Of a stretch of DNA of 10,699 bases, positions 1 to 10,290 are shown piece by piece. How positions within the stretch are numbered: position 1 is the first letter of the stretch; every line of letters starts with the position of its first letter. The notes under the pieces are model-generated. The model was given only the letters and a program-made list of their open reading frames with translations, made no database searches and was not told the DNA's origin. A program made the translations under genes and the position numbers. Source of the stretch: Nocardia sp. (GTDB taxonomy: Bacteria; Actinomycetota; Actinomycetes; Mycobacteriales; Mycobacteriaceae); assembly GCA_013361595.1 (NCBI GenBank), contig JABFXT010000177.1, forward strand, positions 1-10,699. Direction: 5' to 3'.

Positions 1-1152
1 TTTGCCCTTGGCGGCCCCGGCCGCCTTCCGGAACAGATCGATGGTGCCGCCCGCCGGGTAGAGGCCGGTGAAGGCGACCGGCCCCTCGGCGCTGGAATAG
101 TTGTTCTGCGCCGCCGCGACGACCGCGCCGGTGGAGGGCTGGGTGACGACGATGGAGGCGGGCGAACCGACGCTCACCACCGCGTCCTCGGCGGCACGCT
201 GCAACCGCTGGTCCATCGTCCCCGCGATATCGGGTCCGGCCGGGCCCTGGTTGCCGGCCAGCTGTTTGACGAACCGCCCGTTCTCGAACAGTTGTACGGC
301 CCAGCCGGAGTGCTGGTCCTGGCTCTGTTCCCAGACCTTCTTCATGGCGTCGAGCATCGGCGAGAAGATCCGCCGATCGGAGACGATGAGCCGCGGCTCC
401 TGTTTCAAGACCACGCCCGGGATCGGCGCCATCCGCGGGTCCAGGATCGCGAAATCGCCCTCGCGCAGGCTGACCGCGGTGATGGGCTTACCGCCGGCCG
501 CGGCGAGGTCCTCGCGCAGCGAGGCGCCGGTGATCAGGGGGGCCACCGGTTCGATGGCTCGGGCCAGCGCGTCGGTGGAGGCCACCTGATCGGGCATCCG
601 GGTGGGGTCGAGGTCGACGACGTTGATGACCTGCTGAGTCATCAACGGTTTACCGACGTTGTCGACCACCTTGGGCGCCGGGTCCGGGGTGGTGCGCACC
701 AGCTGTACGGTGCGGTTCTGGCTGAGCTCGGGCATGACCACGGCCGGGTCCCAGGAGATCCGCCAGCCGTTGGCGAGTTTGCGGACGTTGCCCTGAAGAC
801 CGTACTTCCAGTTCTTCTGCTCGCCGAAGCTCCATTCGACGTCGAGGTTGAAGATCCCGGATTCGGCGTCGAGCCCGATGAATTGCGCCTTCTCGTAGTC
901 GACGGTCCCCGATTCGAGACCCTCGAACATTTGCCGGAGGGTTGCCGAAGCCGCCGAGGGGTACGAGGTCAACTCGGCCGCCCCGGCGTAGTCGTGTTCG
1001 TCGAGTCGTTGGGTGAATCGGTCGACGACCGTTTCGGGTCCGGCCGATTCGGTCCCGGTCCCGCACGATCCCATCGCGATTGCCAGCGCCGCCACCCCCG
1101 TAAGGGCCATAGCGCCCCGGAAGCGAAAGCGGCGGGATCCCCTCACGTCCAT
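1..1152 (-). CDS. Penicillin-binding lipoprotein (Rv2864c/PbpA-like, NTF2-like N-domain), 3' end outside window
   Basis: The first 384 residues are visible and the frame runs off the left edge. Residues 1-30 form a lipoprotein signal: basic n-region, hydrophobic stretch and Cys30 in MGSC, so the protein should be anchored outside the membrane. Residues about 37-150 look like the NTF2-like (MecA_N) domain of actinobacterial class B PBPs. A dimerisation-type region follows, and the transpeptidase domain opens around residue 312 (TMDQRLQRAAEDAV). Such proteins cross-link peptidoglycan using a Ser in S-x-x-K. Here the matching segment reads GLYPAGGTID (363-372), so Gly369 stands where the Ser is expected and Asp372 where the Lys is expected. 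No stop or frameshift interrupts the frame. The ATG at 1152 is chosen; an in-frame GTG at 1161 is the only alternative before a stop codon. The lipoprotein/PBP family call is firm, but activity is doubtful. Confidence 0.88.
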   Translation of the reverse strand, partial: MDVRGSRRFRFRGAMALTGVAALAIAMGSCGTGTESAGPETVVDRFTQRLDEHDYAGAAELTSYPSAASATLRQMFEGLESGTVDYEKAQFIGLDAESGIFNLDVEWSFGEQKNWKYGLQGNVRKLANGWRISWDPAVVMPELSQNRTVQLVRTTPDPAPKVVDNVGKPLMTQQVINVVDLDPTRMPDQVASTDALARAIEPVAPLITGASLREDLAAAGGKPITAVSLREGDFAILDPRMAPIPGVVLKQEPRLIVSDRRIFSPMLDAMKKVWEQSQDQHSGWAVQLFENGRFVKQLAGNQGPAGPDIAGTMDQRLQRAAEDAVVSVGSPASIVVTQPSTGAVVAAAQNNYSSAEGPVAFTGLYPAGGTIDLFRKAAGAAKGK

Positions 1153-1462
1153 GTCGCCCACTCTTCACTCTTGTCACACCGGTAACAAGACAACCGTACC
1201 TGAAAAATGCCTGCTTGCGAGTCATCGCAAACCCGAAAACGTACCCGTGACCACCGTGTGCAGTTGGGGCCGAGCCCAACTCGCCGCACAGCGGACCATG
1301 ATCAATTATCGGGGCGCCCGAGAACACCCGGCGACGCTACGCTACCGATCGACCAGAAGCGGTGCGTCGTTACCCCGCAAGTCCGCATTCATCGAAGAGA
1401 TACCCGCTCACGGTAGCTCAGAATCATCCCCACGCGGGTGAGGTGTCGGTAGGGTTGCTGCC
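1153..1462. promoter_or_regulatory. Divergent spacer between the PBP and aroQ, with three dyads
   Basis: This 310 bp spacer has no convincing gene. It holds three inverted repeats. At 1170-1189 the arms are CTTGT and ACAAG, with 7 of 10 positions pairing. At 1215-1230 the arms TTGCGA and TCGCAA are perfect around a 4-base centre. At 1262-1281 the arms AGTTGGG and CCCAACT are perfect around 6 bases. The first two lie close to the PBP start and are well placed as operators. The third could be an operator or an RNA hairpin. It is AT-richer than its surroundings, as expected for promoters. No consensus -35/-10 pair for the PBP could be fixed. Confidence 0.4.
1450..1455 (+). promoter_or_regulatory. 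Possible -10 element of a leaderless aroQ transcript
   Basis: TAGGGT fits the actinobacterial TANNNT -10 pattern and ends 7 bases before the aroQ ATG at 1463, so transcription would begin at or next to the start codon. No good Shine-Dalgarno sequence precedes this ATG, which agrees with a leaderless message. No clear -35 was found, so the call is weak. Confidence 0.3.
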
Positions 1463-6087: not shown

Positions 6088-6600
6088 TCAGATATCGAGT
6101 TCTTCGACGGGGGCGTGTTCGGCGATATCGGCGACCCGCCGGTACAGCGGATCGCCGATCTTGTCCTTCAGCTCCTCGACGGTGTCGACAATGGTGAGCA
6201 TGTAGTCGCCCCAGTCGTGTTCGATCCCGAGCATGCGGCGCCAATTCTTCAGGTCGCGCAGCCAGTTCTCGGATTCGGGATAGTCCGACCAGTTCGCGTA
6301 CTGCTCGTGCAGTACGAATTTGCCTTTGCGGCTTCGGAACACGCGTAGATGCTCCATCCGCTCCTCGCCGGCGTCCCGGTGCTCGACGAGCAGAGCCCCC
6401 TGGAATCGCACCTGGCGGGCGCCGTTGTGACCGACCCGCAGCACGATCTCCTCGAACCCCTCGATTTTGCCCTCCTCCAGTTCGATGAAGCGCCTGAGCG
6501 CGGTGACCACCGCACCGGACAGATTCCCGCCGACCAATTCCTGCGCCCGCCGGAACAGTGGCAGATCGTCATCGGCGACGTAGATCGTCTTGTTCGGCAT
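6088..6600 (-). CDS. EXLDI family protein with ribbon-helix-helix-like N-terminus
   Basis: A 170-residue protein ending in EELDI, the C-terminal signature (E-x-L-D-I) that names this actinobacterial family of unknown function. The N-terminus reads like a ribbon-helix-helix fold: strand NKTIYVADDD (3-12), helix LPLFRRAQELVG (13-24), turn GGN, helix LSGAVVTALRRFIELEEG (27-44). A beta-rich middle (EEIVLRVG, QVRFQGALLVEHR, KGKFVLHEQ) and an aromatic/charged C-terminal half follow. DNA binding is therefore an inference from the N-terminus, and the role of the rest is unknown. The ATG at 6600 is chosen because the promoter's predicted start falls on it and the family begins M-x-N-K-x-I-Y-V; the open frame to 6681 crosses the promoter. 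It converges on yqgE. Confidence 0.82.
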   Translation of the reverse strand: MPNKTIYVADDDLPLFRRAQELVGGNLSGAVVTALRRFIELEEGKIEGFEEIVLRVGHNGARQVRFQGALLVEHRDAGEERMEHLRVFRSRKGKFVLHEQYANWSDYPESENWLRDLKNWRRMLGIEHDWGDYMLTIVDTVEELKDKIGDPLYRRVADIAEHAPVEELDI

Positions 6601-6606
6601 GAGCCA

Positions 6607-6635
6607 ACTATACGTAGACATATACGTATAGACAA
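6607..6635 (-). promoter_or_regulatory. Leaderless promoter of the EXLDI gene
   Basis: On the minus strand, TTGTCT (6635-6630) and TATAGT (6612-6607) are separated by exactly 17 bases. Counting 7 bases from the -10 puts the first transcribed base at 6600, the A of the ATG. No Shine-Dalgarno sequence is present, consistent with a leaderless message. Confidence 0.7.
6608..6631. promoter_or_regulatory. TACGTA operator over the EXLDI promoter
   Basis: CTATACGTA (6608-6616) and TACGTATAG (6623-6631) are perfect inverted repeats around 6 bases. Within them the self-complementary TACGTA occurs twice with centres exactly 12 bp apart, and TATACGTA (6609-6616 and 6621-6628) is an 8-base direct repeat. 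The site covers the -10 and the entire spacer of the promoter, so binding would repress. Tandem short sites near 12 bp spacing suit cooperative ribbon-helix-helix dimers. Confidence 0.7.
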
Positions 6636-6700
6636 GATCATGGGCGGGTCGTTTCGCGCAATCGCAAGTCATGCCGATCACCCCCCTTGAGATCTACCTA

Positions 6701-9187: not shown

Positions 9188-9556
9188 TCATTCGGCGAGG
9201 GCTGCCCGGAGGAACCCGCGGATCTCGGTTCGCGCCGCCTCGGCCTGCGGGACGGCCCCGGGCAGCGTAAGGAACGCGTGTGGCGCACCGGGGTATTCGG
9301 TCATCCGCGTCGCGACGCCGGACGCTTGCAGCCGTTCGGCGTAGCGACGCCCGTGGTCGGCCACCGCGTCGTGCGTCGGGACCACCACAAGTGCGGGTGC
9401 CGTCGCGTCGAGGTCGTCGGCGTACAGGGGCGACAGCGCATATGCGTCGACCCCCGGCGGCACAGCCAACCGCTGGAAGAGCCGGAGTTGTGCGCGGACC
9501 TGCGCAGTCTCGACGGTCTTCCGGTGGCCGGGGCCGTTCGATACCGGCGACTTCGC
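9188..9556 (-). pseudogene. Remnant of an alpha/beta hydrolase (hormone-sensitive lipase type), N-terminal part lost
   Basis: About 123 codons remain open between a TGA at 9559-9557 and the stop at 9188. They read like the C-terminal third of an HSL-type esterase: a helical segment VRAQLRLFQRL, then ALSPLYADDLDATAPALVVV, the catalytic-acid loop THDAVAD and the catalytic-His loop YPGAPHAFL, ending in an amphipathic helix. Relatives have about 300 residues. The HGGG oxyanion loop and GDSAG nucleophile are absent, and no ATG or GTG start exists in the conserved-looking upstream part. An ATG with a GGAG site lies at 9560 but opens a different frame. This is best explained by an internal deletion with frameshift. 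A short product from the TTG at 9469 is possible but would be inactive. Confidence 0.75.
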
Positions 9557-9604: not shown

Positions 9605-9610
9605 AAATGG

Positions 9611-9640
9611 ACGCTATATCCTACGACGTAGGTTTGACAA
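9611..9640 (-). promoter_or_regulatory. Candidate promoter toward the hydrolase/esterase unit
   Basis: On the minus strand TTGTCA (9640-9635) could be a -35, paired with TAGCGT (9616-9611) at 18 bases or TATAGC (9618-9613) at 16 bases. O2 lies wholly inside its spacer and O1 just downstream, so both operators would block it. The -10 choice is unsure. Confidence 0.4.
9620..9632. promoter_or_regulatory. TetR operator O2
   Basis: CCTACGACGTAGG is a 13-base perfect palindrome sharing the core of O1 with A instead of T at the centre. The centres are 31 bp apart (9595 and 9626), close to three helical turns. O2 ends 22 bases before the tetR start, so binding would repress tetR itself. Confidence 0.8.
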
Positions 9641-9654
9641 GAGGAGGAGTGACA

Positions 9655-10290
9655 GTGGCCAGGCGCGCCCAGGGCATATCGGCGGGTCTCACCCGCGACC
9701 GCATCGCGGCCGCCGCCGTCGCCCTCATCGACCGCGACGGCCTGGAACGCTTCGGTGTACGGCGCCTCGCCGACGAACTCGGGGTGGATCCGATGTCGAT
9801 CTACAACCACATCAAGGGCAAATCAGCACTGCTGGATGCGGCCTCCGAAGCCGTCCTCGCCGAGCTGCCGACCCGCACCGGCGACGCCTCCGACACCTGG
9901 GACGAGATCGCGCGCCGGACAGCGCACAGCTACCGCGCGGCCGCCTACCGGCACCCCCACCTCGTTCCGGTGCTGGCCACCCGCCCACAGATCTCACCGA
10001 CCGCGCTCGCGCCGCTGGAGCGGCTGGTCACCGTGATGCGCACGGCCGGTCTGCCCGACGATGTCATCGCGGATACCCCGCTGACCCTTTTCGCCTTCCT
10101 CAACGGATACCTGCTGGCGGTCCTGCGCCGCGGCCCCGACAGCGCCGCGGCCGTGCCCACCTTCGATCCGGAGCTTTACCCGACGATGGCCGCGCTCGCG
10201 CCCCGGATGGCCGATTTCGGGTCCGCAGCGGAATTCGATCGGTTACTCGACGCCGTACTCGCCGGGATCCGCGACCGCGCCGACCGCTGA
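9655..10290 (+). CDS. TetR/AcrR family transcriptional repressor (TetR_C-type ligand domain)
   Basis: A 211-residue regulator. The N-terminal DNA-binding domain is clear: helix 1 LTRDRIAAAAVALIDRDGLE (12-31) and the helix-turn-helix VRRLADELGVDPMSIYNHIK (35-54), with the family's characteristic Y-N-H-x-x-x-K recognition region. The remaining all-helical portion, including LNGYLLAVLRRG, resembles the ligand-binding domain of tetracycline-repressor-like proteins (PF02909 type). The GTG at 9655 is used because GAGGAGGA sits 6 bases upstream; the frame is open further back to an ATG at 9607, but that would lie within the operator region. The gene diverges from a hydrolase remnant and an esterase, and two matching palindromes lie between them, so autoregulation and control of that unit are likely. 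The ligand is unknown, perhaps an ester or its product. Confidence 0.92.
   Translation: MARRAQGISAGLTRDRIAAAAVALIDRDGLERFGVRRLADELGVDPMSIYNHIKGKSALLDAASEAVLAELPTRTGDASDTWDEIARRTAHSYRAAAYRHPHLVPVLATRPQISPTALAPLERLVTVMRTAGLPDDVIADTPLTLFAFLNGYLLAVLRRGPDSAAAVPTFDPELYPTMAALAPRMADFGSAAEFDRLLDAVLAGIRDRADR

Follow-up and report, generated by a model that had tools for sequence, protein, structure and literature searches.

In S. aureus PBP2a and E. faecium PBP5, two penicillin-binding proteins (PBPs) with a MecA_N domain, the penicillin-binding fold belongs to an active transpeptidase. A non-synthetic use of this fold is known from the BlaR1/MecR1 penicillin sensors, in which the acylated Ser is kept and a protease and several membrane segments are present. 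Here, we describe a class B PBP gene located at one end of a 10,699-nucleotide stretch of DNA from Nocardia sp. (assembly GCA_013361595.1, contig JABFXT010000177.1; the whole stretch is hereafter called the window). The family to which it belongs shares the MecA_N domain and the fold with PBP2a and PBP5, and, unlike them, appears not to consist of active transpeptidases. In comparison with BlaR1/MecR1, the window protein has no Ser at the site in question and no such domain was found. We consider it rather probable that this protein is an exported, membrane-anchored class B PBP in which catalysis has been permanently lost, and that it has been retained for a non-catalytic part in wall synthesis, as a structural or regulatory subunit.

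B. subtilis PBP3 (PbpC), which also shares the MecA_N domain and the fold, is an active transpeptidase (PMC5656894), unlike the window family. In the same organism, the division complex is held together by a PBP 2B without catalytic activity, with the MecA_N-type PBP 3 supplying the crosslinking (PMC5656894). PBP 2B S309A is therefore similar to the role proposed here, a class B PBP being structural without catalysis (PMC5656894); however, it is an engineered mutant of an active enzyme, whereas the window family would be a natural, fixed pseudoenzyme. The mycobacterial PBP-lipo (Rv2864c, MAB_3167c, MSMEG_2584), a class B PBP of the MecA_N type carrying PF05223 (PMC3987819), has the same architecture as the window family, but needs its predicted catalytic Ser (PMC9170245), whereas the window family has neither the Ser/Lys pair nor the S-x-N segment nor K-T-G. 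No description of this family as inactive was found in the open-licence PMC literature: in the parts available, PMC9170245 does not mention Nocardia, PMC3987819 mentions neither Nocardia nor Rhodococcus, and PMC6273383 is a Streptomyces review. The family would represent a known fold in non-catalytic use.

The window gene and its degenerate motif 1

On the minus strand, a frame beginning at GTG 1161 (or ATG 1152) runs without a stop to base 1, where it exits the window. The following features were assigned to it.

1..1161, minus strand: pseudo-transpeptidase PBP gene, its 3' part lying beyond the contig end (387 codons from GTG 1161; alternative start ATG 1152)
1066..1113, minus strand: hydrophobic membrane/signal segment, residues 17-32 (read from the sequence)
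1063..1065, minus strand: lipobox-like Cys, residue 33, in M-G-S-C (loose script pattern)
715..1038, minus strand: MecA_N (NTF2-like) domain, residues 42-149 (Pfam PF05223, E 1.1e-8)
250..714, minus strand: middle (pedestal) region of a class B PBP, residues 150-304 (structure model and alignment)
241..255, minus strand: family-specific G-x-Q-G-P motif, residues 303-307, at the junction of the pedestal and the transpeptidase-like domain (alignment)
1..240, minus strand: start of the transpeptidase-like domain, residues 308-387, which goes on past the contig (codons, structure model and alignment)
37..48, minus strand: degenerate motif 1, G372-T-I-D375 instead of S-T-F-K (codons and alignment with the competent paralogue)

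A first-pass annotation of this DNA had reported an intact gene with an NTF2-like domain, in which Gly and Asp replaced the Ser and Lys of the active site. The codons are as it described: within GLYPAGGTIDLFRK, the Gly codon ggc (bases 48-46) stands for the Ser and the Asp codon gat (bases 39-37) for the Lys. Since a competent paralogue of the same genome has LTGLYPPGSTFKTVTAA in the columns of this motif, the residue-by-residue alignment proposed for it is right. The NTF2-like domain was recovered as MecA_N. The residue numbers Gly369 and Asp372 had been counted from the ATG and become Gly372 and Asp375 from the GTG. As to the word 'intact', the frame is indeed open over 387 codons, but the claim holds for these codons only, because the window is the entire contig (C373) of an incomplete draft assembly (78% complete, 908 contigs). 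The 3' remainder, cut off by the contig end, was not found in the searched draft genome and is known from relatives alone. Among these, the full-length orthologue of locus L011 (560 aa) is 92% identical to the window protein over 387 aa.

With the window protein, no match to the Pfam transpeptidase domain (PF00905) was obtained at E values up to 10. Among 45 aligned family members, this domain was matched in 7 at E <= 0.01, and MecA_N in 44. A plus-strand open frame of 394 codons (window 1-1185) runs antisense to the PBP gene and was taken as a high-GC shadow frame.

Catalytic motifs and selection across the family

An orthologue was present in all 35 genomes of the same genus that were searched; the best matches were 56-92% identical, in stop-free frames of 561-567 aa. 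In the 29 of these Nocardia orthologues that were read and aligned, neither an S-x-x-K nor the normal STFK was found (0/29). K-T-G was gone too, the K-T-G-T-A-E of the active paralogue being replaced by forms such as S-A-Q-A-G-D, and the block bearing S-x-N was deleted relative to the active paralogue (48 residues in L011). In the 36 family members measured, the spacing from motif 1 to motif 3 was 46-72 residues shorter than in their own active paralogue. One exception, L060, has an unrelated insert on the S-x-N columns; its tree position and motifs place it in the pseudo-clade.

The same loss of S-x-x-K, and of STFK, was observed in all 40 members of the tree presented below, window included (0/40). 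The Ser position is occupied by S in 13 of them, G in 10, T in 4, P in 4 and other residues in the rest, and the Lys position by D in 20, E in 10, G in 3 and others, an acid thus being found in 30/40. The sole K at the latter position is partnered by Asp. As the 13 Ser are never paired with a Lys, and the window has Gly, the acylatable Ser and Lys of a BlaR1/MecR1-type sensor are missing. A protein search gave 230 matches, and all organism names among the best 120 were Nocardia. In the 121 proteins analysed, including the query and the window's own, the motif 1 pattern was readable in 119, with no S-x-x-K and with an acidic residue (Asp or Glu) for the Lys in 115; the two proteins outside these 119 have G-N-I-E and G-T-Q-E. 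No K/H-T/S-G-T/S/E string was present after residue 430 in the 121 proteins, the window's own ending earlier.

Furthermore, a set of named public records, the best 80 of 215 and biased towards the query's kin, comprised 37 Nocardia and 43 non-Nocardia loci and included Rhodococcus, Prescottella equi, Aldersonia, Antrihabitans and Rhodococcoides. The frame was open in 80/80 of these loci (546-688 codons from stop to stop) and a downstream S-x-x-K in the correct register in none. An out-of-register S-x-x-K string occurred in 4/80, starting 10 or 12 residues past the Ser column. Being out of register, it was rejected as a shifted functional motif 1, and these strings appear to be there by chance. 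By computation, the family is thus shown to lack the motif 1 pair of Ser and Lys as well as the S-x-N segment and K-T-G, of which the last two lay beyond the view of the first-pass annotation, and to have retained the pedestal and the central fold.

To estimate selection, the ratio of nonsynonymous to synonymous changes (dN/dS) was calculated pairwise (NG86) for 16 Nocardia pairs and ranged from 0.02 to 0.19 over the whole gene. For the window and three near relatives, it was 0.08, 0.09 and 0.11 (387 codons). From motif 1 onward, 13 complete-gene pairs gave 0.02-0.20, and the values are thus far below 1 in the transpeptidase remnant as well. These substitution patterns indicate purifying selection on the pseudo-PBP, including its pedestal and central fold. 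That the window copy is cut off by the contig end might have pointed to a decaying gene, an isolated mutation or a sequencing error, but this explanation is refuted. The orthologues in the Nocardia genomes searched have open frames, and those read and aligned lack S-x-x-K, which rules out an error or an isolated mutation. Pseudogene status is ruled out by the absence of stops and frameshifts in 35 Nocardia genomes and 80 loci, together with the dN/dS range given above; moreover, the motifs are lost in 21 genera. The sequence checks thus support the first-pass view that this pseudo-transpeptidase is being maintained and is not a gene in decay; the functions suggested there, a scaffold, regulator or sensor, would be candidates.

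Conservation, expressed as the mean majority-residue frequency, was then compared between 37 pseudo-members and 32 active paralogues. The respective values were 0.55 and 0.50 in MecA_N, 0.60 and 0.57 in the middle region, and 0.66 and 0.64 in the first strands of the transpeptidase fold, the pedestal being as conserved in the pseudo-family as in the active paralogues. Around and after the former active site, they were 0.43/0.75, 0.48/0.71 and 0.48/0.71. According to this pattern, conservation is at the level of an enzyme everywhere but in the part that once carried out the chemistry. Within G-x-Q-G-P, residues Q305, G306 and P307 are found in 95-100% of the pseudo-members, and the active paralogues have other majority residues there. 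The frequency of Asp or Glu at the Lys position (30/40 and 115/119) could suggest that an acid replacing the Lys supports another activity, one that does not proceed through an acylated Ser. Such an alternative chemistry is very unlikely, since the former cleft has lost the S-x-N segment and K-T-G and is the least conserved region (0.43-0.48), the family-specific conserved residues being located elsewhere.

Distribution, origin and genomic context

The distribution of the gene was examined in 151 genomes of the bacterial family, representing 31 genera, with a full-length orthologue as query and a cut-off of E <= 1e-60. A match was obtained in 107/151 genomes and 22/31 genera. Some of these matches are active paralogues, and the sole matching genome of genus g50 matches through one of them; when translations of at least one representative of each genus were read, a true pseudo-member was found in 21/31 genera. 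Genus g50 may be Mycobacterium; PE-family proteins did little to separate mycobacteria from the rest, being matched in 25 of 32 genomes. One draft genome, G073 (g36), contains two different window-type pseudo-PBPs (L198, 305-2080, and L199, 1482-3176).

Trees were built from 331-332 N-terminal columns; everything from eight residues before the Ser was omitted, so that no catalytic column was included. L040 and L042 were left out of the alignment, the near-duplicates L040-L045 and L048 out of the first tree, and L047, L078, L080 and both L085 rows additionally out of the second. The window-type members form one clade with a support of 100/100 in both trees (40 rows in the first, 38 in the second). 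In the second tree, this clade is nested in a 96/87 clade with paralogue-A enzymes, the inner branch order of which is not settled by it. As resolved by these columns, the pseudo-family is one clade among active MecA_N-type PBPs of the PBP-lipo kind.

No window-type match at E <= 1e-60 was found in genera g42 and g45, which have a different extra MecA_N-type PBP, represented by seven copies (L174, L189-L193 and L194). In six of the seven, the motif 1 Lys and the K of K-T-G are lost, and in four the Ser as well; the S-x-N segment of these six is not lost as a whole, S-x-N itself being kept in one. The seventh, L194, is still intact (S-A-F-K, S-C-N and K-T-G). Since the seven copies group in a separate clade (100/100), in which the intact L194 is nested, catalysis was lost independently in g42/g45, by parsimony twice if it was never regained. 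This lineage possibly represents earlier stages of the same inactivation process.

Two catalytically competent paralogues, A (C848) and B (C813), are present in the window genome; the latter would be of the Rv2864c type. Paralogue A lies upstream of the pseudo-PBP, on the same strand, in 41 of the 43 non-Nocardia named-record loci, and it has S-x-x-K, S-x-N and K-T-G in 41/41 cases. The distance between the two is -276 to 861 bases, mostly about 100, as measured between stop-to-stop frames and not mapped starts. The tandem was also present in 14 of a further 32 non-Nocardia loci, and no paralogue A was found near the pseudo-PBP in the 37 Nocardia loci (0/37, flanks of up to 6 kb on each side). 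Position and tree together suggest that the family originated by tandem duplication of an active paralogue A, still upstream in many genera, and that catalysis was lost once in the window-type family, before the genera split.

On account of the tandem arrangement (41/43 and 14/32 loci), strict dependence on paralogue A was an early favourite, and the pseudo-PBP could be a dedicated regulator of this neighbour, either as the inactive half of a heterodimer or as an allosteric brake or activator. The 37 Nocardia loci argue against it, and so do 12 genomes in which the pseudo-PBP (12/12) and, in 11/12, a competent paralogue B are present and paralogue A is not (0/12, E <= 1e-25). As these genomes were picked for having no strong paralogue-A match, they show that this state exists, not its frequency; two of them, G067 and G089, are single contigs. 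In addition, paralogue A occurs without a pseudo-PBP match (E <= 1e-60) in G109, G156 and G167. Strict dependence is weakened by the 12 genomes, and a dedicated regulator is unlikely; the pseudo-PBP outlives paralogue A in several genera, so its role is probably not confined to the regulation of that neighbour.

Past the pseudo-PBP, the Rhodococcus locus L054 continues with genes for a TauE/SafE protein, a POT transporter and a DUF3054 protein. A DUF3054 gene also follows in the Nocardia locus L069, which suggests a shared ancestral site. No fixed neighbouring regulator recurred in the few loci with annotated neighbours. In the window, a divergent class II dehydroquinase gene (1463-1927) adjoins the pseudo-PBP; in the close relative L069, it was not called at that place, possibly because it was masked by an overlapping frame. 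The window also encodes a 197-aa protein (6088-6681, minus strand) that matches no Pfam family; by eye, a similar protein was recognized at 15-596 of L069, close to the PBP orthologue. Farther along the window, a 20-nt inverted repeat (9582-9601/9620-9639), whose arms are 95% complementary with 18 nt between them, spans the start of a TetR-family gene (9607-10290) and is likely the operator of that repressor. A 93-aa frame (9188-9469, minus strand), adjoining the TetR gene and a carboxylesterase gene, matches the C-terminal third of Abhydrolase_3 only (profile 149-209 of 210) and is probably an esterase remnant.

Possible role of the pseudo-PBP

AlphaFold gave a confident predicted class-B-PBP fold, for which the best Foldseek matches were PBP2a, E. 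faecium PBP5 and B. subtilis PBP3. A loose lipobox pattern was detected by script in 27/38 tree members and 59/80 named-record loci, some being missed through the choice of a wrong segment. Several members are clearly without the Cys, so lipidation is not universal in the family. Judging by their titles, some of the matched PBP2a entries have the allosteric site occupied by a peptidoglycan analogue or by muramic acid. These entries and the best conservation of the N-terminal parts would be in agreement with a peptidoglycan or muropeptide sensor or decoy, in which nascent wall is bound by the MecA_N/pedestal part, in the manner of PBP2a's allosteric lobe, and is reported or buffered by the remnant domain. 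However, no signalling domain was found in the window frame or in the 45 aligned relatives, a second membrane segment was not seen by eye (no membrane predictor was run), and no regulator recurred in the few annotated neighbourhoods. As the conservation of the pedestal is, moreover, hardly above that of the active enzymes, we regard a sensor or decoy as improbable.

The preferred reading, a structural or allosteric subunit, is inferred from how the protein is built and anchored to the membrane, from the conservation of its pedestal, from the active PBPs that accompany it and from the PBP 2B precedent in B. subtilis. According to this scheme, the pseudo-PBP would form part of a wall-synthesis complex on the outer side of the membrane. 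Its partners there may be the competent paralogue B, PBPs of division or elongation, or the glycosyltransferases that work with these. It would offer them binding surfaces on the pedestal and the G-x-Q-G-P hinge, and by this binding the active enzymes could be recruited, spaced or allosterically tuned.

Several observations weigh against this scheme. In M. abscessus, PBP-lipo S364A, predicted to be catalytically dead, fails to complement (PMC9170245); it is therefore unsafe to assume that a dead copy can do the work of its parent. No match for the pseudo-PBP was found at E <= 1e-60 in 10 of the 31 genera sampled, nor in the single-contig genome G167 of genus g44, in which other genomes have the gene. 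Its absence from those lineages indicates that the gene is dispensable in some of them, but the absence from ten genera holds at this cut-off only, and divergent copies may have been missed. Finally, the dN/dS values were obtained by plain pairwise counting (NG86) in genes rich in GC, and the window's own 25 codons from motif 1, with 0.03, 0.08 and 0.25, are too few to weigh.

On balance, we lean towards a natural, family-wide pseudo-PBP. It would have lost its three motifs in a single lineage long ago, have been maintained by selection in about twenty genera, Nocardia and Rhodococcus among them, have outlived its parent enzyme and have been re-invented independently in two further genera, and it would serve as a pure scaffold or allosteric subunit that beta-lactams cannot acylate. 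Many of its members bear public names such as 'penicillin-binding protein', 'penicillin-binding protein 2', 'cell division protein FtsI/penicillin-binding protein 2' and transpeptidase-domain protein, among others (best 120 of 230 matches). Because of such names, one protein that is not expected to bind beta-lactams may be tallied among their targets in Nocardia and Rhodococcus. With a dead PBP that occurs in nature and is under purifying selection, a catalysis-free structural role would become testable in a genetically tractable laboratory Rhodococcus, in which the dead copy adjoins its living sister.
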